43,955 nt of DNA from a virus. The notes below the pieces were generated by a model. It ran no database searches, was not told the DNA's origin, and saw only the letters and a list, made by a program, of their open reading frames with translations. Of the stretch, positions 4,486 to 43,955 are shown one piece after another (positions within the stretch are counted from its first letter, which is position 1; every line of letters starts with the position of its first letter). Position numbers and translations under genes: made by a program. The stretch is from IMG/VR virus record IMGVR_UViG_3300046001_004360, positions 1 to 43,955 of that record; one strand, written 5' to 3'.

Positions 4486-7400
4486 ATGGCCCAGACCACT
4501 GTCACTTACGTGGCCGACGCCGGACAGCGTGAGTTCGACGTGACCTTCCCCTACCTTGACGCGGCCCACGTCCACGTCACGGTGCGGGACCTGCCCGTCA
4601 CCTTCACCTTCGCCTCCCCGTCGCGTCTGCGGCTGGGGGCGGGGGTGTCGGAGGGCAGCGCCGTCCGCGTCTATCGAAAGACGCCAGTCGACGAAGCCTT
4701 GGTCCAGTTCCAAGCCGGTGCCACGCTCACCGAGGCGGACCTCAACACCGCCATTCAGCAGACCCTATTCATCCAGCAAGAGCTGGGGGACCTCTACGAC
4801 GGTGCCCTCACCGACGCTCTGGTCCGCCTCGGGGACAACCTCGGGATCGTCACGGACCCATCCAGCCTCATCGATGAGATGGTGCAGATGACCCTCGGGT
4901 CGTCCGTTCTCAACGAGTTCCGCGAGCGCATCTTCGACATCGACCTGTCGGCCGAGACGCTCATCGAGGAGGCCCTCAGAAACTTCGCCAGCCGCGAACG
5001 TGCCACAGCCCTACAGGCACGGGTCAATCTGGCCGACGCCAACCTCACCATCACCCAAGACCGGGTCCTCGAAGCCGAGGGCCGCATCCTCTCCCTGACG
5101 GGGGTGGTCGACGGCCTCGTGAACATCGGTGACGGGGCGGGCATCGCCACCCTGATTGCCGCCGAGACCCTAGAGCGGATCACCGCCGACACGGCTCAGG
5201 TGTCCATGCTCGCCCTCATCGGCGCAGCCAACGGCTCCAACACCGCCTTCGACCTGAACCTGTCCACCGTCCGGGTCACCCCGACGGAGACCCTCGCCCA
5301 GCGACTGACCGCCCTCTCGGCGGCCACCGCCTCCGCACGCGCTCTCGTCATCGCTGAGACCACCGCCCGGGTCGACGCCGACACCGCCGCCGCTGGCCTC
5401 CTCACGGGGATCACGGCCCGCGTCGGTACCGCTGAGGCCACCGCCATCACCGACAGGGCCGCACGGGTCTCCGGGGACAGCGCCCTCACCACCAGCCTCG
5501 ACGCCCTCACGGCCCGCATGGGCACCAGTGAGGCACAGGTCGTCACCGACAGGGCCGCCCGGGTCTCCGGGGACAGCGCCCTCGCCACGTCCCTCGACGC
5601 CGCCACGGCCCGCATCGGTGCCTCAGAAGCCACCATCCTCACGGACAGGGCCGCCCGGGTCTCCGGTGACAGCGTCAACGCCACGGCCATCGACCTCGTC
5701 CGCGCCCGCACGGCAACCGCTGAGGCCACCCTGATCTCAGACAGGGCCGCTCGGGTCGCCGGGGATGAAGCCAGCGCCACCGCGCTCGACGTCGTCCGCA
5801 CCCGCACCGCGTCCTCCGAGGCGTCCATCATCTCCGACCGCGCCTCGCGCGTCTCCGGAGACACCGCCCTCGGGACCCGCATTGACGCCGTCACGGCCTC
5901 AGTCGGGGACACAGTCGCCCTCGTCGGCACCGAGACAACCGCACGGATCGCCGCCGACAACGCTGAGGCCGCCCTCCGGGTCGCCTTGGCCACCCGCTTG
6001 GGGACCGCCGAAGCCGCGATCCTGACCGAGACCACGACCCGTACCTCGGCCATCGCCGCCGAGGCCGCCCTACGCACCACCCTAGCAACCCGCGTGGGTG
6101 CGACGGAGGGCGCGATCCTCGCGGAGACCACCAACCGATCCAACGCCGACGGCGCGATCCTGTCCACCCTCTCCCTCCTCGGGGCGAGGAACGCAGGGGG
6201 CACCGCCTTCGTGGTCGATATGGCCACCGCTCAGGTCGGTGGTGGTGTGAGCCTCGGCACCCGGTTCTCCGGTCTCGACACCCGCGTGGGTCTCAATGAG
6301 GCCGCCGTGATCGCTGAGACGACCGCCCGCACCACCGCCTTGGCGGCCGAGACTGCCAGCCGGGTAGCCCTCGGGACCCGCGTGGGTCTCGCGGAGGCCG
6401 CAGCACTGACCGAGGCCACGGCCCGCTCAGACGCCGACGCCGCCGAGGCCGCCCTCCGGGTAGCCCTCGGGACCCGCATGGGTCTCGCGGAGGCCGCCAT
6501 CCTCACCGAGGCCAGCACGAGGTCCGACGCCATATCGGCCGAGGCCGCCCTGCGTACCACCCTCGCTTCCACCGTGGGGGGTCACACCTCCTCGATCACG
6601 AGCATCCTGTCGTCCGTCGACGGGCTCAGCGCCCGCGCTGGCCTCACGCTCGACGTCAACGGCTTCGTGACCGGCTGGTCCCTGAACAACGACGGGGACA
6701 CCGGGTCGTTCTCGATCCTCGCCAACCACTTCGCCATCATCGACCCCGGCGCTCCCGGGTCGGCCCCGCTCATCCCCTTCGAGATAAGCGGCGGCGTAGT
6801 CCGCATCCGCAACGCCCTGATCGACAACCTCGATCTCGTCCGTCTCGGGTCGGGCACGTTCAACGGGGATATGGCCGTCGGCACCGGGAAGATCATCTTC
6901 AACAACGGCACGACCATGATGGTCCACGGTGTGGGCTTCGGCACCACCAACCAGTTCCTTGAGTGGTCTGGTCCGTCCATGGACATCAGCCTCTGCTCAG
7001 AGGCCAACGGCGTGCGGTGGTTCAAGACCACCGGGGATGCCTACTTCGGTGGGTCACTCAGCATCGGCACCCTGACCTCCAAGGTCGCCACCTCGTCCCT
7101 CGCGGTCGCCCCCGAGGTCGAGACGGCATCCTTCGGTTCCAACGGGGACCAGATCAGCGTCGCCCTGAGCTACAACCGACAGATCGTCGGACGGTCGGCC
7201 ACGGCCCCCGCCACGGGAGCCATCACGGCCACCATCACCCTGTACCGCAGCATCGGCGGCGGGGCCTACGCGGGCGTTGCCACCCTCACCGCCACGGGGA
7301 CGCAGACGGCCACGTATGACGGCGAGTTCGGAAACTACATCGTCACCGCCAACATCAGCGGCAGCGCCACCTACTCCGACCCATCCCTCAGCGTCAGCAA

Positions 7401-7500
7401 CCGCCAGTTCAAGGCGGTCGTCTCCGCTCGCGGGGGCGTGACCACCCTAGGCAGCGCCACCGGCACCCAGAACCTCTCCATCATCGCCACGGAACAGTAA
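4486..7500 (+). CDS. Tail fibre: T7 gp17-type N-terminus, repeated stalk, gpJ/DUF1983-like C-terminal region
   Basis: 1004 aa; start ATG 7 bases after GGAGAG. Residues about 1-110 (starting MAQTTVTYVADAGQREFDV, with the downstream QFQAGATLTEADLN segment) match the T7 tail-fibre N-terminal domain that anchors the fibre to the tail. Residues about 285-690 are a stalk of roughly 30-residue repeats built on AEA-x-(I/L)-x-(S/T)DRAARVSGDSAL and later AETTARxxADAAEAALR, expected to form trimeric coiled coil. The C-terminal part (GLTLDVNGFVTGWSLNNDG, FAIIDPG, PFEISGGVVRIRNALID) resembles the DUF1983 region of siphovirus gpJ-like host-specificity proteins. The protein therefore looks like a chimera of podoviral anchor and siphoviral receptor-binding end. 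Its stop overlaps the next start (TAATG). Confidence 0.88.
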   Translation: MAQTTVTYVADAGQREFDVTFPYLDAAHVHVTVRDLPVTFTFASPSRLRLGAGVSEGSAVRVYRKTPVDEALVQFQAGATLTEADLNTAIQQTLFIQQELGDLYDGALTDALVRLGDNLGIVTDPSSLIDEMVQMTLGSSVLNEFRERIFDIDLSAETLIEEALRNFASRERATALQARVNLADANLTITQDRVLEAEGRILSLTGVVDGLVNIGDGAGIATLIAAETLERITADTAQVSMLALIGAANGSNTAFDLNLSTVRVTPTETLAQRLTALSAATASARALVIAETTARVDADTAAAGLLTGITARVGTAEATAITDRAARVSGDSALTTSLDALTARMGTSEAQVVTDRAARVSGDSALATSLDAATARIGASEATILTDRAARVSGDSVNATAIDLVRARTATAEATLISDRAARVAGDEASATALDVVRTRTASSEASIISDRASRVSGDTALGTRIDAVTASVGDTVALVGTETTARIAADNAEAALRVALATRLGTAEAAILTETTTRTSAIAAEAALRTTLATRVGATEGAILAETTNRSNADGAILSTLSLLGARNAGGTAFVVDMATAQVGGGVSLGTRFSGLDTRVGLNEAAVIAETTARTTALAAETASRVALGTRVGLAEAAALTEATARSDADAAEAALRVALGTRMGLAEAAILTEASTRSDAISAEAALRTTLASTVGGHTSSITSILSSVDGLSARAGLTLDVNGFVTGWSLNNDGDTGSFSILANHFAIIDPGAPGSAPLIPFEISGGVVRIRNALIDNLDLVRLGSGTFNGDMAVGTGKIIFNNGTTMMVHGVGFGTTNQFLEWSGPSMDISLCSEANGVRWFKTTGDAYFGGSLSIGTLTSKVATSSLAVAPEVETASFGSNGDQISVALSYNRQIVGRSATAPATGAITATITLYRSIGGGAYAGVATLTATGTQTATYDGEFGNYIVTANISGSATYSDPSLSVSNRQFKAVVSARGGVTTLGSATGTQNLSIIATEQ

Positions 7501-7720: not shown

Positions 7721-9538
7721 ATGCTGACCAACGCACAACTCGCAAACCAGATCGCTGACCTCCTGTCCCTGCTGGCCACCCGTGGTGACCAGATGCAGGA
7801 CTGGCTGGGCGGCGCTGCCGACGGCGGCCCGAACGGCGACGGCTACTTCCCGCTGGAAGACGCCAACGGCGTGATCCAGTCCGTCCCGTCCCCCGCCAAG
7901 CTGGCCTCCGCCGCCACCGGCCCGGCCGCCGAAGCTGCTGCCGAACGCGCCTCCGCTGACATCGCCGCCGCTGCTGCGCTGGCTCAGGCCGACCGCGCCG
8001 AAGGTCTGGCCGTCCTCGTCGAGGCCGCCAAGGACACCACCATCGTCGCCCGCAACGCGGCGCAGCTCGCCCGCGACAACGCTCAGTCCGCTGAGGGCAA
8101 CGTCGCCGCCTACATCAGCCAGATCGAAGCCGCCGTCGACGCCGCCGAGGCGTGGGCCGAAGCCGCTGAGCTGAACGCCACCGTCGGTCCTCAGGGTCCC
8201 GCTGGCCCCACCGGCCCCACCGGCAACACCGGCCCCACGGGAGCCACCGGCCCGCAGGGCGTCATCGGCCTGACCGGCGCGGACAGCTCCGTCGTCGGCC
8301 CGCAGGGCATCCAAGGTGCCCAAGGCATCCAAGGCGCAACCGGCCTGACCGGAGCCACGGGCCTGACCGGGGCCACCGGCCTCACGGGCTCTCAAGGCCC
8401 CATCGGCAACACCGGCCCCCAAGGAGCCGCCGGTGCCAACAGCGTCGTCGCGGGTCCTCAGGGTCCTCAAGGCCTCGTCGGTGCAACCGGACCGGCTGGC
8501 GCACAGGGCATCCAAGGCCCGGCTGGGCTGGACGGTGAAGACGGCATCGATGGCATCGACGGCCTCGACGGAGCAGACAGCTTCGTGGCTGGCCCCGCTG
8601 GTTCGACCGGCGCTGCCGGTGCTGCTGGCCCGCAGGGCATCCAAGGCCTGACCGGCGCTGCCGGTGCTGCAAGCACCGTTGCCGGACCCACCGGCCCGAC
8701 CGGCCCTGTCGGTGCCGCAAGCACTGTCGCTGGACCCACGGGTCCCGCAGGTGCCCAAGGTGTCATCGGTCTGACTGGACCGGCTGGCGCTCAGGGCATC
8801 CAAGGTGTCGCTGGCGCTGCTGGCGCTGCGGGCGCTGCTGGCGCTCAGGGCATCCAAGGTGTCGCTGGCGCTGCCGGTGCTGCCGGTGCCCAAGGTGCCC
8901 AAGGTGCCGGAATGACTGACTACGTCGTCGGCCCGACCTCGGGGACCTTCGTCCCCACCGTGAACCATGGCCGCTACAAGGTGACCCCGGCCTCGGGCGC
9001 GACTGTTACTCTGTCGGGCTACCACGGGCCTACGTTCAGCTTCATCGCCAGCAACTTCACGCTCTACCATTCAGGCGACGGAGCCATCAACATCGCCGCC
9101 ATTGCCGTTGCCCCCGGCGGCATCGGTGCGGCGAACCTCACGTCCAAGGGTGTCTACGTCTTCTCCAAGCAGACCGACGGTGCCTACTCCGTCATCTACT
9201 CGCCGCTGCACCCTGCCCCCGCCGCTCTGGCAGCTGGGTCTGCCGGGATGCTGCCTTGGGTTCTGGGCAGCACGAACCCGTCGTCCCTGCCAAACGGGAC
9301 CCGCCTGTACGGGATGACCCCGACGTTGTTCATGTATCAGCCGGGGGTTCTCCCGGTCGGGGCGGAAATCTGGGTTGCCGATACCGGAACGTATGACGGC
9401 TCCTCCTACACCGGCCTGTCTCTCGATGACGATGGGAACAGCCACTTCCTTCGCGTCCTCAGCGGGGCGATGAACATGATGCACCACGTCGGTGGGGGCA
9501 CGTGGCGCACCGTCGCTACCCAACTGACGGTCTTCTAA
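7721..9538 (+). CDS. Collagen-like second tail fibre / appendage protein (605 aa)
   Basis: ATG follows AAGGACCTCC, a close ribosome binding site, 8 bases after the previous stop. Residues about 1-155 are an Ala-rich helical head (LLSLLATRGDQMQDWLGG, then AAxAxAE repeats). Residues about 156-400 are Gly-X-Y collagen-type repeats (GPQGPAGPTGPTG and GAQGIQG units), interrupted by short non-collagen spacers such as ADSSVV and AASTVA. The C-terminal ~200 residues are a globular, Gly/Ser/Tyr-rich domain, the likely tip. Collagen repeats in phage fibres form triple-helical stalks. The DNA coding the repeats is itself repetitive (GGCATCCAAGG recurs many times), so copy number may vary or be misassembled. 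Likely a receptor-binding appendage mounted on the first fibre or tail. Confidence 0.82.
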   Translation: MLTNAQLANQIADLLSLLATRGDQMQDWLGGAADGGPNGDGYFPLEDANGVIQSVPSPAKLASAATGPAAEAAAERASADIAAAAALAQADRAEGLAVLVEAAKDTTIVARNAAQLARDNAQSAEGNVAAYISQIEAAVDAAEAWAEAAELNATVGPQGPAGPTGPTGNTGPTGATGPQGVIGLTGADSSVVGPQGIQGAQGIQGATGLTGATGLTGATGLTGSQGPIGNTGPQGAAGANSVVAGPQGPQGLVGATGPAGAQGIQGPAGLDGEDGIDGIDGLDGADSFVAGPAGSTGAAGAAGPQGIQGLTGAAGAASTVAGPTGPTGPVGAASTVAGPTGPAGAQGVIGLTGPAGAQGIQGVAGAAGAAGAAGAQGIQGVAGAAGAAGAQGAQGAGMTDYVVGPTSGTFVPTVNHGRYKVTPASGATVTLSGYHGPTFSFIASNFTLYHSGDGAINIAAIAVAPGGIGAANLTSKGVYVFSKQTDGAYSVIYSPLHPAPAALAAGSAGMLPWVLGSTNPSSLPNGTRLYGMTPTLFMYQPGVLPVGAEIWVADTGTYDGSSYTGLSLDDDGNSHFLRVLSGAMNMMHHVGGGTWRTVATQLTVF

Positions 9539-9880: not shown

Positions 9881-10146
9881 GCGGCCGGGCTCTAGAAGCC
9901 GCAGTCGACGCCCTCCACGGGGTGGTCTGCGGTGCCCTCGGGGACGAGCTGAACCGGGCCATCGACCGTGCCCGCGCCAACCCCGAAGACCCTGACTGCG
10001 CCATCAACCCGCAGCTCATCGACAAGGTCCTCAAGTTCCTCGCCCAGAACGGTGTCAGCGCCCCGCGCTCCACCCCGAAGGTCGACGCCCTCGCGGGCCA
10101 GCTCGCGGACCTCGATCTCGATGAGGAAGCCCGCCTTCCCCACTAG
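9877..10146 (+). CDS. Terminase small subunit, gp18-like (89 aa)
   Basis: GTG start overlapping the holin stop (AAGTGA). The 89-aa product is the same length as T7 gp18 and lies directly upstream of the large terminase gene. It is helical, with a central INPQLIDKVLKFLAQNGVSAP segment followed by an acidic C-terminal tail (LADLDLDEEARLPH), as found in T7-like small terminases. It should recognise the concatemer and direct the large subunit during packaging. The GTG is preferred because the upstream part of the open frame overlaps the holin gene and has no protein-like composition. Confidence 0.78.
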   Translation: MSGRALEAAVDALHGVVCGALGDELNRAIDRARANPEDPDCAINPQLIDKVLKFLAQNGVSAPRSTPKVDALAGQLADLDLDEEARLPH

Positions 10147-10253: not shown

Positions 10254-12017
10254 ATCGAACCCCCGCACCCCCTGACCTCCATTGAGATCCTCAAGGGCTC
10301 GTTCCCCAAGTTCCTCTGGTACGTCTTCACGGCCATCCTCGGCCTGCCTGCGCCCACCCGCATCCAGCAGGACATCGCCCGCTTCCTCAGCGACGGGGAC
10401 TGCAAGCTCCGCTTCATTCAGGCCTTCCGGGGGATCGGCAAGTCCTTCCTCACCTGCTGCTACGTCGTGTGGCGGCTCTGGAACAACCCCAACCTCAAGG
10501 TCCTCATCGTCTCCGCGAACGAGACGCTGGCCACGGAGAACGCCACCCTCATCAAGCTGCTGATCGAACACCACGTCGGTGACGCATTGTGGTCAGAGCT
10601 TCGCCCCCGTCCCGACCAACGCTCGTCCACCCTCGCCTTCGACGTCGGCCCGGCCGTCCCGGACAAGTCCCCCTCCGTCAAGGTCGTGGGGATCACCGGG
10701 CAGCTCACCGGCTCCCGCTCCGACATCCTCATCTCCGACGACGTCGAGGTCCCGAAGAACAGCCAGACCGAGACCCAGCGTGACAGGCTCCGCGAGCTGA
10801 CCGGCGAGTACACCGACATCGCCAAGACCGGCTCCGAGATCATCTACCTCGGGACCCCGCAGTCACAGGAGTCGATCTACAAGGCCCTCCCGGGCAAGGG
10901 CTACGCCACGCGCGTCTGGCCCGGTCGCTACCCGCTCCTCGCCAAACTCGCAGGTTACCTCGGGACCCTCGCGCCCCTCCTGCAAGCCGACATCGACGCT
11001 GACCCCGACCTGTGCAAGCCCATCGGCTCCACGCTCGCGGGTGCCCCGACGGACCCCAAGAGGTTCAACGAGCATGAGATGATGCTCCGCGAGGTCGGCC
11101 GAGGCCCCGCAGGCTTCATGCTCCAGTACCTGCTGGACACCAGCCTGTCCGACGCTGACCGCTACCCGCTCAAGACCCGGGACCTCATAGTCACCGATGT
11201 CGACACCAAGCTCGCCCCGATCCGTCTGGCGTGGGGCTCGGCCAAGGAGCAGGTCCACCTCGACCTCGACAACGTCGGCTTCACCGGCGACCGCTTCCAC
11301 CGGCCCATGTTCGCCTCGCCTGACTTCCAGCCCTTCACGGGGTCGGCCATGGTCATCGACCCCTCGGGCCGAGGCAAGGACGAGACCGCCTACTGCGTGA
11401 CGAAGTTCCTCAACGGCTTCGTCTACGTCCGCAAGTGGGGCGGCTTCCGCGATGGCTACTCCGAGGAAACCCTCAGGTCCCTCGTGGACATCGCCAAGGA
11501 CGAAGGGGTCACCCGCATCCTCTGTGAGGACACCTTCGGGGACGGTATGTTCCGCCAGCTCATGGAGCCCTACCTCCGTCGGCGTCACCCCAACTGCTCC
11601 CTTGAGGGGTACAAGAGGTTCACGCAGAAGGAGGTCCGCATCCTCGACGTGCTGCGTCCGGCCCTCGCCCAGCACCGCGTCGTCATCGACACCGCCGTCA
11701 TCCGCGCCGACCTCCTCCAGCCGGAGAACGTCAAGCGCGGGATGTACCAGCTCACCCACATCACCTCCCAACGTGGGTCGCTCAAGCACGACGACCGGGT
11801 CGAGGTCCTAGCCGAGGCAGTCAAGGTCTGGGCCGAGTACCTCAACGCCGACGCCCACAACGCTGAGGCCGCCTTCCGCAAGGCCGAGCAGGCCAAGTGG
11901 GACAAGGCCTTCTTCGCAGGCACCTTCGTAGGACAATCCCTTGAAGCCAAGGGACGCCCTCAGAGGGGTGCTGGACGCCCTCTAGCCCAGAAGGCACGCA
12001 AGGGTATCCGCTGGTGA
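10254..12017 (+). CDS. Terminase large subunit, gp19-like (587 aa), apparent ATC start
   Basis: Packaging ATPase-nuclease. The N-terminal ATPase has the Walker A segment QAFRGIGKSFLT, almost identical to T7 gp19 (QAFRGIGKSFIT), followed by VVWRLWNNPNLKVLIVSA. The C-terminal nuclease domain has DPSGRGKDETAYCVTKFLNG and EDTFGDGMF, again close to gp19. The open frame begins after TAG 10242-10244 and contains no ATG, GTG or TTG before the conserved LKGSFPKFLW segment. ATC at 10254 lies exactly six bases after AGGAG (10243-10247) and gives 587 aa, against 586 for T7 gp19, with the conserved LKG two residues from its T7 position. The first usual start (GTG 10467) would delete Walker A. Either ATC initiates or the base is a sequence error for ATG. 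Confidence 0.93.
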   Translation: MEPPHPLTSIEILKGSFPKFLWYVFTAILGLPAPTRIQQDIARFLSDGDCKLRFIQAFRGIGKSFLTCCYVVWRLWNNPNLKVLIVSANETLATENATLIKLLIEHHVGDALWSELRPRPDQRSSTLAFDVGPAVPDKSPSVKVVGITGQLTGSRSDILISDDVEVPKNSQTETQRDRLRELTGEYTDIAKTGSEIIYLGTPQSQESIYKALPGKGYATRVWPGRYPLLAKLAGYLGTLAPLLQADIDADPDLCKPIGSTLAGAPTDPKRFNEHEMMLREVGRGPAGFMLQYLLDTSLSDADRYPLKTRDLIVTDVDTKLAPIRLAWGSAKEQVHLDLDNVGFTGDRFHRPMFASPDFQPFTGSAMVIDPSGRGKDETAYCVTKFLNGFVYVRKWGGFRDGYSEETLRSLVDIAKDEGVTRILCEDTFGDGMFRQLMEPYLRRRHPNCSLEGYKRFTQKEVRILDVLRPALAQHRVVIDTAVIRADLLQPENVKRGMYQLTHITSQRGSLKHDDRVEVLAEAVKVWAEYLNADAHNAEAAFRKAEQAKWDKAFFAGTFVGQSLEAKGRPQRGAGRPLAQKARKGIRW

Positions 12018-12297
12018 CTTGAGTCCCCTGCCCCCCTCCCAGCCCACCGTAGGTACCATAGGCAACTGTGGTGTCCTCGGCTGGGCCGGGACGGGGATGA
12101 CCACCCGGTCGAGGAGACTATCTCCACCATACCCCTTGCATCTCCCCCCTGATCCGTGGTACCCTTCAAGACCAAAGGTACTAGAGGGGAACCTTGGGTC
12201 TCCTTCGGTCTCCTGTTCTCTCTTACCTCTGGTCTACACGTCGTCCCCGACTAGGTACCTATGGAGCCTCTGGTACCTCTGGTGACCAAAGGGTTCC
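12018..12297. other. Non-coding region after the large terminase, hairpins and repeated short words
   Basis: No protein-like frame is seen. TCCTCG (12074-12079) with CCGGG (12086-12090) can pair with CCCGG (12104-12108) and CGAGGA (12110-12115). Two weak promoter-like cores occur: CACCGTA 12045-12051 and CACCATA 12125-12131. From 12160 on, the words GACCAAAGG (12170, 12283), GGTACC and CCTCTGGT recur, and TCCTGTTCTCTC at 12211-12222 also occurs at 34233-34244. In T7 the concatemer junction lies just after the large terminase gene, so the physical genome end may be near. Confidence 0.5.
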
Positions 12298-12522
12298 TCA
12301 GGTGACCGAGGCTGCCCGCTCCTCCGGGGGCCTCTCCCCGTCCCACGTCGCCATCCACGCCTTGAGGATCGCCTCGGCGTCCTGACGGACCAGCAGGAGG
12401 CGCTCTTGGAGGACCGGGGTCGCCCCGAACATATTGATCGACCCCCCGGCCCTCAGCTCATCGAGGAACGCAAAGGCCTCCGCAAGCTCCTCACGGTCCA
12501 TCTCAGGCAGGGCGGTGGTCAT
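12298..12522 (-). CDS. Small minus-strand phage protein (74 aa), the only credible reverse-strand gene
   Basis: Read on the minus strand the ATG at 12522-12520 is preceded by GAGGAACCTGCC, a good ribosome binding site. The product has two helical segments and a central NMFGATPVLQERL motif followed by LLVRQDAEAILKAWMATW. The pattern FLDELR-(A/S)-G-x-x-NMFGA-x-P-x-L ... A-x-x-x-L-x-x-WM resembles a family of small conserved phage proteins of unknown function; I recognise the pattern but cannot name a role. A longer open frame up to 12684 has a Pro/Gly/Trp-rich upstream part that does not look like protein and runs through the candidate minus-strand promoter at 12617. T7-like phages normally encode all genes on one strand, so orientation and location at the likely genome end are unusual. 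Confidence 0.7.
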   Translation of the reverse strand: MTTALPEMDREELAEAFAFLDELRAGGSINMFGATPVLQERLLLVRQDAEAILKAWMATWDGERPPEERAASVT

Positions 12523-12886
12523 GGCAGGTTCCTCAGGTGCCTCGGGTCCCTGAGCATGGGACCACCACCGGGCAGGGGTCAATCGTTTTGGGGTCACCCA
12601 TACGAAGGGTGTTATATACGGTGGCCCGGCCGAGGTTCCCCCCCCTACCCCCCACCCGCCAAGGGGAGAGAGGGCCACCCCCACCCCACCCCGGCACCCC
12701 CTAGGCCCCCCATATCAAGGCACCCCCTACGCGCAATCAGGCCACCATTGCCTTTGCGTGGCCCTGTTAAGGCCAGTGGGTGCCATGCCCTGCCCTATCA
12801 GGGGACCAGAGGGCACCCTAAGCCCTGCCCTCCCACTGTCTGCCCTCTCCCTTGCCCTCCCCTGCTTTGTTTCGCCCTGCCCCGCC
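12523..12886. other. Intergenic stretch with a pyrimidine-rich tract
   Basis: Apart from the minus-strand promoter candidate, no gene is seen. An inverted repeat GGTCCC / GGGACC lies at about 12545-12562. From 12780 to 12880 the + strand is dominated by C and T with repeated GCCCT words, directly followed by the G-rich array, giving an abrupt strand-composition switch. Long + strand frames here (for example 12406-12927) lie antisense to the 74-aa gene or are Pro/Gly-rich artefacts. Confidence 0.5.
12612..12628 (-). promoter_or_regulatory. Putative minus-strand phage promoter for the 74-aa gene
   Basis: On the minus strand 12617-12623 reads CACCGTA in context GGCCACCGTATATAAC, matching the + strand variants at 14845 and 19664. 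It is intergenic and lies 95 bases upstream of the minus-strand ATG, giving an ordinary leader. Confidence 0.5.
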
Positions 12887-13020
12887 GGGGACCAGAGGGG
12901 ACGCTAGGGGACCAGAGGGGACGCTAGGGGACCAGAGGGGACGCTAGGGGACCAGAGGGGACCAGAGGGCAGGCCAAGGGACCAGAGGGGACCAGAGGGG
13001 ACGCTAGGGGACCAGAGGGG
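12887..13020. repeat. Decameric tandem array of GGGG-N6 units
   Basis: Two 10-bp modules alternate: A = ACCAGAGGGG and B = ACGCTAGGGG. From 12891 the order is A B A B A B A, then an imperfect A (12961, ending GGGC) and AGGCCAAGGG, then A A B A to 13020; a further lone A is at 13052. GGGG runs fall at exactly 10-base intervals from 12887 to 12960, with 6-base spacers. The strand fits the classic G-quadruplex pattern and the period equals one helical turn. T7 carries short-repeat arrays beside its terminal repeats, so a role at the genome end, or as iterons, is possible. It is not a CRISPR array: the units are far too short and directly abutting. Confidence 0.9.
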
Positions 13021-13145
13021 ACCACCGGACCACCACCCTACCCCACCGGGGACCAGAGGGGGCCATGTAAGGCTAGCCTGACAAATCGCCCAGGCACGTC
13101 ATCCGGCACCGAAGGGCACCGCAAGGCACCCCGTCGGGGACCGCA

Positions 13146-13162
13146 TCCCACCATAAGCCGGG
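13146..13162 (+). promoter_or_regulatory. Putative phage promoter in the early leader (1)
   Basis: Core CACCATA at 13149-13155, context ATCCCACCATAAGCCGG, a strong match including the downstream CCGG. No gene follows for about 790 bases, so it would transcribe the hairpin-rich non-coding stretch. Confidence 0.6.
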
Positions 13163-13428
13163 GACGGCACCGGGTAGGGGCAGGGAGGGGGGCAGGACCG
13201 GCGAGGCGGGGAGTTTGATACCGTCACGGCCCGGTCGAGACTTGGCCGCCTAGCACCCCTCAGAGGCCCTAATGGGGATATGGACCGCGTGACGCGCATC
13301 GCGCGGGTATAGAGGGTTCCCCGGTCATGGTGGGGGATTGGCCGTCGTCGTCCCTAGGCCGTGACGATTTATTCCCTTTGGTGGCCTGACCAGAGTGGAA
13401 AAGTGCACCGCCATGCGAAAATAGGTGT

Positions 13429-13446
13429 TGCCACCATAACCGGGAT
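13429..13446 (+). promoter_or_regulatory. Putative phage promoter in the early leader (2)
   Basis: Core CACCATA at 13432-13438, context TTGCCACCATAACCGGG. It lies about 130 bases upstream of the run of hairpins at 13561-13830 and about 510 bases upstream of the first early gene. Confidence 0.6.
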
Positions 13447-13560
13447 ATGACCTTTTGAAGGGGCGGGGCGGCCACGGCGGCCCGGCGAACCGGCCCTCAG
13501 GGGCCTAGGCCAACCGGGGCGAATACACCGGGATGACGGGGGGGTCTTAAACCTCCTGCC

Positions 13561-13830
13561 CTTGGCGGGGTAGCGGGAAGGCCGGGCGAGACAACCCCGG
13601 AAAGCCGGACTTGAGACTGAGGTGACAATCCTCAGGGCCGCTAGGGCAACCTAGGTGAAGGCCACAAAAGCAAGCCCCCACGTAAGCAGGGGCATCCAGC
13701 CGCCAACGGGTAACGCCGGGCCATGGGATGCAACGCTAGGCGAGAACGGGGCAAGGCGACCGTCCCCCGACGTAAGGGGCCGCGCCACAATCGGTGAGTA
13801 GCGCCCTGCGCACAACGAAACCCCCACGGC
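13561..13830 (+). ncRNA. Candidate structured non-coding RNA (class unknown)
   Basis: No convincing protein frame, but many compact stems in series: CTGAGG/CCTCAG (13617-13622 with 13630-13635); CTAGG-GCAA-CCTAG (13641-13654), a stem closed by a GNRA tetraloop and flanked by GGCC/GGCC (13636-13639, 13660-13663); GCCCC/GGGGC (13674-13678 with 13689-13693); ATCC/GGAT (13694-13697 with 13726-13729); CCCC/GGGG (13765-13768 with 13776-13779); and a longer-range CGCTA/TAGCG (13734-13738 with 13799-13803) enclosing the last hairpin. Linkers are A-rich (CACAAAAGCAA). Two loops share ACGTAAG. The closed long-range stem around a hairpin recalls P7/P8 of group I introns, but I cannot identify the conserved core, and it does not fit RNase P RNA, tmRNA or tRNA. 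Confidence 0.4.
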
Positions 13831-13896
13831 CTGACAAGCCACCTTGGGAGCGGAGTTTAAACAGGTGATAGCCCCGGCCGGTGAGGGGGAAGCGTA

Positions 13897-13914
13897 GGGG
13901 TCTATTCCGACCCC
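13897..13914 (+). terminator. Hairpin before the first early gene
   Basis: GGGGTC (13897-13902) pairs with GACCCC (13909-13914) around a 6-base loop. No T-run follows. It lies 31 bases before the first early start and could be a processing site or transcription pause. Confidence 0.4.
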
Positions 13915-13945
13915 CTGACGATGACCTTTGGAGGGTCGAAACGCC

Positions 13946-14167
13946 ATGACTGTGAAGCCTGAAAGCCTCGCCGCCGCCGCCGATATGGGATACGCCACCC
14001 TCAATCGGGATCGGCTTCTAGCCGCCGTCAACGCCGCCGCCGACGCGGCCCGGCTGGATATTGCTAACCCCGCCCTCCGCGCCGCCCATGTGGCCCTCGC
14101 CGCCCTTCACTCAGACGCCTGTGACGCCGCCAACGCCGCTCGCCGCGCCTTTGAAGCCACCCTGTGA
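13946..14167 (+). CDS. First early gene, Ala-rich helical protein (73 aa), unknown
   Basis: ATG preceded by TTGGAGGGTCGAAACGCC, with GGAGGG ten bases upstream. The product is Ala-rich and fully helical (LAAAADMGYATLNRDRLLAA then ANPALRAAHVALAALHSDA). It opens the early cluster, a position where T7-like phages place small host-takeover proteins, but nothing in the sequence shows a function. Its stop overlaps the next start (GTGA). Confidence 0.6.
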   Translation: MTVKPESLAAAADMGYATLNRDRLLAAVNAAADAARLDIANPALRAAHVALAALHSDACDAANAARRAFEATL

Positions 14168-20853: not shown

Positions 20854-20911
20854 GACCAGAGCAGGAGACCTTTAGGTACCTTTGGTTACCTTTGGGACCC
20901 TCTGGTCTCCT
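20854..20911 (+). promoter_or_regulatory. Leader with two mutually exclusive hairpins (attenuator-like)
   Basis: GACCAGAG (20854-20861) can pair with CTCTGGTC (20900-20907), while AGGAGACC (20863-20870) can pair with GGTCTCCT (20904-20911). Both are perfect 8-bp stems that share 20904-20907 and so cannot form together. The loop has TACCTTTGG twice. The words also occur around 12160-12300. It lies ahead of the last small genes before the RNA polymerase. Confidence 0.45.
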
Positions 20912-42576: not shown

Positions 42577-43955
42577 TGGCCAACGACATCTCACAGGCCC
42601 CGGGCCGCACACTCTCTCAGCGCCGCATCACCCTCAACCGATCCGACGTCAGCGCCGGACGCCGGGAGACTGGCCTCGCCGGTCTGGACGTCAAGGCCGA
42701 CCTTCGCTCCGCATCTCGTGGAGACGGTGGAGCCGGGGACCTACAACGGACCCTCTCGGGTTTCCTGCAATCCGCTCAGGGTGTCTACGAGACCGAGACG
42801 GAACGCCGCAAGCCCATGTACGAGGCCGAGGCCGCCGCAGGCGCTGAGGCTCAAACCCTCGGCAACGTCGACCCCGCCGTCGCGGCCCGGTCCCTGTCGT
42901 ACCGCACGGCAGTCAACGGCACCCGTGCCCGCCAGACCGTGGTCACCACCGGGGCTGCCATCGACGAAGCCGTCACGGCCCTCATCGCCCGCAGCGAAGC
43001 CAACGATGATCCTCTGGACCCCTCGGATGACTTCGGCATCGAGGACGTCGAGGACGGTCTGAACCAGATCATCTCCAACGTCCTGTTCGACGAGGATGGC
43101 AAGGCCCTAGAGTGGGGCGACGCCGACAGCCACATGACTGTCATCCAAGGCATCGCACGCCTCAAGAACGAGGCCTTCATCCGCGCCGAGACCGCCATAC
43201 GCGGTCAGGTCCGCGAGAACCACGTCCGCACACTGGGTGTCGGCATCGCCCTCGACGTGACCCAGTATGATGGCTCCACGCCCATCAACTTCGAGGCCGG
43301 TGTCGCCGCCGCCCGCGAGGGTGGCTGGACCGCCGCCGAGTCCGTCCCCCGCCTCTTGGATGACGCTATCAGCGCCGCCCAGCAGCACGACAAGGCCGAC
43401 GCCCTCGACGCCCTCGCCCTGTCGGTACGTGCCGACGGCCAGCCGTCCTTCAACGCCGCCCAGATGACCCAGCTCCGAAACAACGCGGACAACATCCGCG
43501 ACCGCGTTGAGCGGGAGACCGATGAGAAGAACAAGGAGACGAGCGCCGCCACCCTGTCGTCCTATCTCATCACCGGCCGAGCGGTCCCTATGTCCACCAT
43601 CCAAGCCGACCACGCTGCTGGCAGGCTCGATGCCGACGGCGTCCGTATGGCCATCGCCCACAACGAACACGTGGACGACCGCGCATACATGATGCAGGGA
43701 CGCGCCAACGCCGCCGCCGACCGGGCCTACAGCCTCGCGCATCGGGGTGGTGGTGGTGGTGGTGGACGTCGCTCAGGCGGGTCAGCCGACACCGAAGACG
43801 AGCTGATCGGCGCTCTCCACAGTGGGGCGCGACCCGCCGACATTCTCAACCGAGCCGCCCGCGATCTTCAATCTGGGAGGCTGGACGCAGCAGAGTACCG
43901 CCGCGTCGTCCGGGACGTGGGGCAGGCCCAGACCGATGCCGCAGAAGGCAACGTT
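42576..43955 (+). CDS. Internal virion protein, gp15-like, N-terminal part (runs off the window, continues at base 3)
   Basis: ATG overlaps the gp14-like stop. The frame is open to the end of the window and continues in frame at bases 3-320 once the 118-bp overlap is merged, giving 525 aa. N-terminus APGRTLSQRRITLNRSDV is polar; residues about 60-370 are helical with many charged and Ala residues. Near codon 392 lies a run of seven glycines (HRGGGGGGGR), a flexible linker encoded by a GGT tandem repeat at 43745-43765. The final two codons of the window (AAC GTT) diverge from the left copy and are probably assembly-edge errors. Confidence 0.75.
   Translation, partial: MANDISQAPGRTLSQRRITLNRSDVSAGRRETGLAGLDVKADLRSASRGDGGAGDLQRTLSGFLQSAQGVYETETERRKPMYEAEAAAGAEAQTLGNVDPAVAARSLSYRTAVNGTRARQTVVTTGAAIDEAVTALIARSEANDDPLDPSDDFGIEDVEDGLNQIISNVLFDEDGKALEWGDADSHMTVIQGIARLKNEAFIRAETAIRGQVRENHVRTLGVGIALDVTQYDGSTPINFEAGVAAAREGGWTAAESVPRLLDDAISAAQQHDKADALDALALSVRADGQPSFNAAQMTQLRNNADNIRDRVERETDEKNKETSAATLSSYLITGRAVPMSTIQADHAAGRLDADGVRMAIAHNEHVDDRAYMMQGRANAAADRAYSLAHRGGGGGGGRRSGGSADTEDELIGALHSGARPADILNRAARDLQSGRLDAAEYRRVVRDVGQAQTDAAEGNV
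43836..43953. repeat. Right copy of the 118-bp terminal overlap
   Basis: Identical to bases 3-120; see the left copy. The last two bases of the window (TT) differ from 121-122 (AC). Confidence 0.9.

Follow-up and report, generated by a model that had tools for sequence, protein, structure and literature searches.

In the viral sequence of 43,955 nucleotides analysed here over its full length (the window), runs of four guanines follow one another at ten-base steps between the terminase genes and the early genes, which raises the question of what such an array is and what it might do at this place. The window is a complete genome in circularly permuted form, belonging to a T7-like phage that carries an integrase. 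Its ends share an identical overlap of 118 bp (3-120 = 43836-43953) by which the genome closes on itself within a tail gene, and any terminal repeat would therefore be collapsed inside the sequence. Coded in it are TerL, TerS, an integrase, a single-subunit RNA polymerase, primase/helicase, DNA polymerase, portal, capsid and tail proteins, of which the RNA polymerase (phrog_414, E 3e-238) and the T7-type TerL and TerS constitute a T7-like gene set. Among named phages, Mycobacterium phage jiawei and Caulobacter phage S2B come closest (RNA polymerase 63% and 61%).

Anatomy of the array and of the predicted terminal repeat

An earlier note on this DNA had described eight GGGG runs at exactly 10-bp spacing followed by four more, which their positions (12887, 12897, 12907, 12917, 12927, 12937, 12947 and 12957, then 12987, 12997, 13007 and 13017) and a comparison with shuffled sequence confirm: compared with the ladder of eight, the longest that 2,000 dinucleotide shuffles of 12601-13600 produced was 4. 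The two groups are separated by a degenerate pair of units (GGGCAGGCCAAGGG, 12967-12986), and beyond a gap GGGG appears again at 13048 and 13058. Only 0.02% of all 200-bp stretches of the window reach a self-match at 10-13 bp as high as that of the array. The array is indeed composed of two modules, ACCAGAGGGG and ACGCTAGGGG, but ACCAGAGGGG at times occurs twice running, so that the alternation ascribed to them is not strict. The C/T-rich tract to its left was correctly recognised (about 12816-12885), as was the location between terminase and early genes, TerL ending at 12017 and the first early ORF starting at 13946. A search of phage records with the nucleotide sequence of the array region gave no match. 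Rfam has no RNA family there; the array is therefore not a known structured RNA, and this candidate was rejected.

The ends of the terminal repeat were predicted by calibration with the records of T7, T3 and S2B, which carry exact direct terminal repeats of 160 bp, 231 bp and 259 bp, respectively, while the records of Lo5R7ANS and CRP-113, in which no exact end repeat was found, were unusable for this purpose. All three repeats stop 2 nt ahead of the CTG in a T-rich motif (ATCTGTT or CCTGCTTTTTTCG), with CCCT preceding ATCTGTT in T7 and T3 and GGCA preceding CCCTGCTTTTTTCG in S2B. Their left ends all lie 7 nt past C(T/C)GA, at aaaaatCTGAgtgacta in T7, aaaaatCTGAatgggta in T3 and aaatCCGAagcggca in S2B, the repeat then opening with T in each case. 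LUZ100, with a terminal repeat of 244 bp (PMC10134795), agrees with the calibration at the right end (TTG before CGCTTTTTC), its annotated left end lying further on.

In the window the calibration yields the predicted terminal repeat listed in Table 1, which contains one array unit (12801-12813) and has short tandem repeats on both flanks, at 12170-12312 and 12887-13062. The right array begins 28 bp to the right of this predicted repeat (12613-12859), and relatives have arrays in the equivalent position, which supports the suggestion that the array sits where T7 has short repeats next to its terminal repeat. The ladder of the left array at 12252-12312 consists of CCTATGG, CCTCTGG, CCTCTGG, CCAAAGG and CCTCAGG. 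Compared with the relative L006, the window has an insertion (about 12313-12575) that separates the left array from the left junction motif and has a small minus-strand ORF inside.

Table 1. Coordinates of terminase genes, arrays, junction motifs and predicted terminal repeat in the window.
Feature	Position	Strand	Basis
Small terminase subunit (TerS)	9883..10146	+	phrog_891, E 2e-8
Large terminase subunit (TerL), approximate start	10272..12017	+	phrog_38, E 1e-89; tblastn with S2B and jiawei TerL
Left array (proposed SRR equivalent), five 10-bp units at 12170-12219 and ladder at 12252-12312	12170..12312	+	
Conserved left junction motif TCGTTTTGGGGTCAnnnATACGAAGGGTGT, repeat start predicted 7 nt after CGA	12583..12612	+	Unique in window at ≤3 mismatches
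Predicted terminal repeat of 247 bp, present once in the circularly permuted assembly	12613..12859	.	Motif-calibrated ends
Right junction motif CCCTGCTTTGTTTCG, conserved, corresponding in position to ATCTGTT of T7 (class II pause site / concatemer junction)	12860..12874	+	
Right array (proposed SRL equivalent), about 14 ten-base units ACCAGAGGGG / ACGCTAGGGG	12887..13024	+	
Outlying unit copy GGGGACCAGAGGGGG	13048..13062	+	
Short third array of like unit class, ACCTTTAGGT ACCTTTGGTT ACCTTTGGGA CCCTCTGG, upstream of phage RNA polymerase gene	20868..20906	+	

Arrays and junction motifs in T7 and in relatives

Short repeats flanking the ends of T7 are known already; their names, SRL and SRR, and their interpretation as repeats beside the terminal repeat reportedly go back to Dunn and Studier in 1983. 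To our knowledge, the function of these end-flanking repeats is not settled. As in the window, where the terminal repeat is a predicted one, the arrays of T7 (NC_001604) directly adjoin the terminal repeat on both sides, on the right past a CTG-containing T-rich edge motif, and in both phages a short unit recurs about once per DNA turn, with units inside the terminal repeat too. In contrast, the T7 unit is CCTAAAG at 13 bp while the window has ACCAGAGGGG / ACGCTAGGGG at 10 bp, and the window unit CCAGAGG is unrelated to CCTAAAG beyond a common CC-N3-(G/A)G frame. Relatedness of the unit to CCTAAAG was not taken as defining a T7-type junction, since the unit varies even among close relatives. 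S2B (MN857473) and jiawei (OR464703), whose TerL proteins are 63% and 59% identical to that of the window, share with it the gene order, the junction motifs and the arrays on both sides; in contrast to the window, their unit is centred on CCGGGGG / CCCTAGG at 10-12 bp, and the arrays are unannotated in their records. Literature searches turned up no account of arrays like SRL/SRR in phages other than T7. The present analysis adds a distant lineage which combines the T7 layout and a common frame with a unit that differs, and it adds a calibrated prediction of the ends.

At ATCTGTT of T7, RNA polymerase makes a class II pause (PMC9624206, PMC9157156), and the repeat ends 2 nt before the CTG of this site just as it does in S2B before that of CCTGCTTTTTTCG. 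By analogy, which supports this reading, the right junction motif can be taken as a putative polymerase pause site. The motif of the relatives differs from ATCTGTT by a longer T run and by mostly having CTGC for CTGT; that of L049 (TATCTGTTTTTTT) is near the T7 form. Relative loci were fetched through TerL, and at about 55% identity or more the right motif is mostly present 430-1090 nt after this gene. Of the 35 loci retained, 31 have it downstream of TerL with at most 2 mismatches (shuffle mean 0.46) and 16 have it as an exact 12-mer (0 in 100 shuffles), counts that describe this set rather than an unbiased sample, as the loci were retained largely for showing the right motif. The layout of junction motif and arrays recurs in bacterial genome assemblies, namely Caulobacter D5 and two of Novosphingobium; when more distant TerL relatives in bacterial genomes (≤50% identity) were included, motif and array together were found in essentially only the three close ones.

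In most loci the 200 bp to the right of the motif match themselves at 10-13 bp or at double that lag, and in many the self-match of the array is near the top among all windows of the locus; the SRL of T7 shows a 13-bp period in the same analysis (z 8.9). Examples of right arrays are CCTGTGGTGC (L028), CACCCGGAGGAC (L007), TCCGCTGGGC (L035), ACCTGAGGCC (L049) and ACCACAGGGCC (L042). The lag analysis gave no significant period of 10-13 bp, or double, for L010, L013, L033, L045, L060 and T3, and the right array is weak or missing in LUZ100, T3, L010, L012-L014, L027 and L033, hence it is not indispensable.

For CC-N3-GG, a frame picked after inspecting the sequences of these mutually related loci, 211 occurrences were counted right of the junction where 102 are expected, and spacings of 10, 11 and 12 bp occur 28, 31 and 21 times, respectively, against about 2 each expected. 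On the left side the count is 146 against 84, with a spacing pattern that is alike but weaker. The middle of the unit is phage-specific, being AGA in the window, ACA in L006, GGA in L007, TGA in L009, TGT in L028 and GCT in L034. Within one phage, units are shared between the left and the right array beyond the permutation expectation (P 0.001 for CC-N3-GG, 5e-5 for 7-mers), a similarity for which base composition or recombination between the arrays may be partly responsible. In the near-identical contigs L006 and L002, four of the five substitutions over 2.45 kb fall in the array, which, judging from this sequence pair, indicates fast turnover.

Possible roles of the array

With the anatomy and position described above and with spacing and frame conserved, the array is best read as an element of packaging or maturation which sits at the concatemer junction, diverges fast and probably binds a phage protein. 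In terms of T7, we consider it quite likely that it is the right short-repeat block of a T7-like concatemer (packaging) junction, equivalent to SRL and matched by an SRR-like left block between TerL and the terminal repeat. An involvement in packaging or in the processing of concatemers is favoured because the array lies at the junction, because arrays stand on both flanks of the repeat and because they recur both in lytic T7 and in integrase-coding relatives. The order along the concatemer would be TerL, left array, terminal repeat, pause motif, right array and early genes. If events resemble those in T7, the phage RNA polymerase would pause at the T-rich motif on the right edge of the terminal repeat and recruit terminase, which would cut at the motif and at the left edge such that the terminal repeat is duplicated. 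The CC-N3-GG arrays would then most likely serve as a multivalent binding surface for a maturation protein, TerS or an accessory factor.

The G-runs themselves gave rise to the proposals that the array folds into G-quadruplexes or stalls polymerase and that it is helically phased on one DNA face. The array region of the window does contain 15 overlapping starts of a G3+ motif, with a G4Hunter maximum of 1.76, but such a motif also occurs in 62% of shuffles of the same region and in only 5 of 33 homologous regions, a set that includes T7, which has none; moreover, the arrays of L022, L023 and L027 lack GGGG altogether. A G-quadruplex or polymerase-stalling element is thus highly improbable, and it was dropped as a conserved function after testing against the relatives, in which the G-run pattern is not conserved. 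Strict phasing on one face fared no better, as periods of 10, 11, 12 or 13 bp are found across the relatives and those of 11-13 bp are common. Conservation in relatives, to which the earlier note had tied its proposals, thus holds for the equivalent place and the similar spacing, whereas the GGGG runs and the exact 10-bp period are not conserved. Going by the sequences compared, G-richness belongs to the unit of this phage and to relatives rich in GC, and does not characterise the element as a class. Position and spacing of the array, rather than its G-runs, appear to matter, because the arrays of relatives occupy the equivalent place with different spelling and similar spacing.

The arrays might instead serve as operators to which a phage transcription regulator, such as a lysogeny repressor, binds; some of these sites would then lie between the terminal repeat and the early promoters, and others ahead of the RNA polymerase. 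The phage carries an integrase, a MarR-type repressor of LUZ100 has been proposed to bind near the polymerase promoter (PMC10134795), and units of like class precede the RNA polymerase gene in the window, L002 (6936-6972), S2B and jiawei, although the third array of the window is weak by itself, with about one such ladder expected per shuffled genome. The presence of this third array in four phages would also fit a regulatory role. As an account of the arrays at the junction it seems unlikely, since strictly lytic T7 has a comparable array in the equivalent place, the left array follows TerL far from the early promoters, and no regulator family was found among the early ORFs tested. It is likewise unlikely that the array is a neutral tandem repeat which arose by slippage or recombination beside the junction and has no function. 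The rapid change of units seen between L006 and L002 and the weakness of arrays in several relatives would fit such an origin; against it, the 10-12 bp spacing and the CC-N3-GG frame recur in phages with different units, and arrays occupy both flanks of the repeat, in T7 as well.

For a packaging or maturation element, the regularly spaced near-dyad units suggest multivalent protein binding, and binding of a terminase or replication protein, as raised in the earlier note, is plausible. TerS would suggest itself as the candidate, since this genome encodes it and the packaging complex of T7 includes it. As a tentative and rather speculative extension, the arrays may be a platform that evolves quickly and is recognised by a phage protein co-evolving with it. 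This could be, for instance, a ring of small terminase that touches one CC-N3-GG unit at each DNA turn, and each phage would in this way package its own concatemers. Units would be homogenised inside a phage and exchanged from one phage to another, with the spacing kept. Differing units with a common frame and similar spacing in distant relatives make the question of the end-flanking repeats testable by unit-swap experiments, and the calibrated motifs offer a sequence-only route to predicting the physical ends of T7-like phages from metagenomes.

Further features of the genome

Homology to TerL extends from about 10272, yet no in-frame ATG, GTG or TTG precedes the GTG at 10467, and L006 is likewise; the gene may use a non-standard start codon, or may be reached by a frameshift from TerS. 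A structure-library match of TerS to VopV was disregarded as it spans 21 residues. Two genes further upstream carry repeats, imperfect 96-bp repeats at 5412-6551 in a gene of 1004 aa (4486-7500) and collagen-like 9-bp repeats at 8124-8908 in a gene of 605 aa (7721-9538), and both likely encode tail fibre proteins.

A conserved hammerhead-ribozyme candidate lies at 13892-13944, directly before the start codon of the first early ORF (13946), and S2B and jiawei likewise have a hammerhead-like RNA ahead of their first early gene. By sequence it has the CUGANGA and GAAA core, three stems and an NUH cleavage site, with cleavage predicted after 13896. Rfam gave no match to this candidate, and the pattern had 0 matches in 1.3 Mb of shuffled sequence. 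There are 18 non-duplicate examples, with varying base pairs in the stems and GUC, GUA or CUC sites, found in the window, L004, L005, L006 (two), L007, L008 (three), L009, L010, L013 (two), L026, L037 (three) and L058. In the candidate of the window, a GGAGG resembling a ribosome-binding site lies within the loop of stem II.
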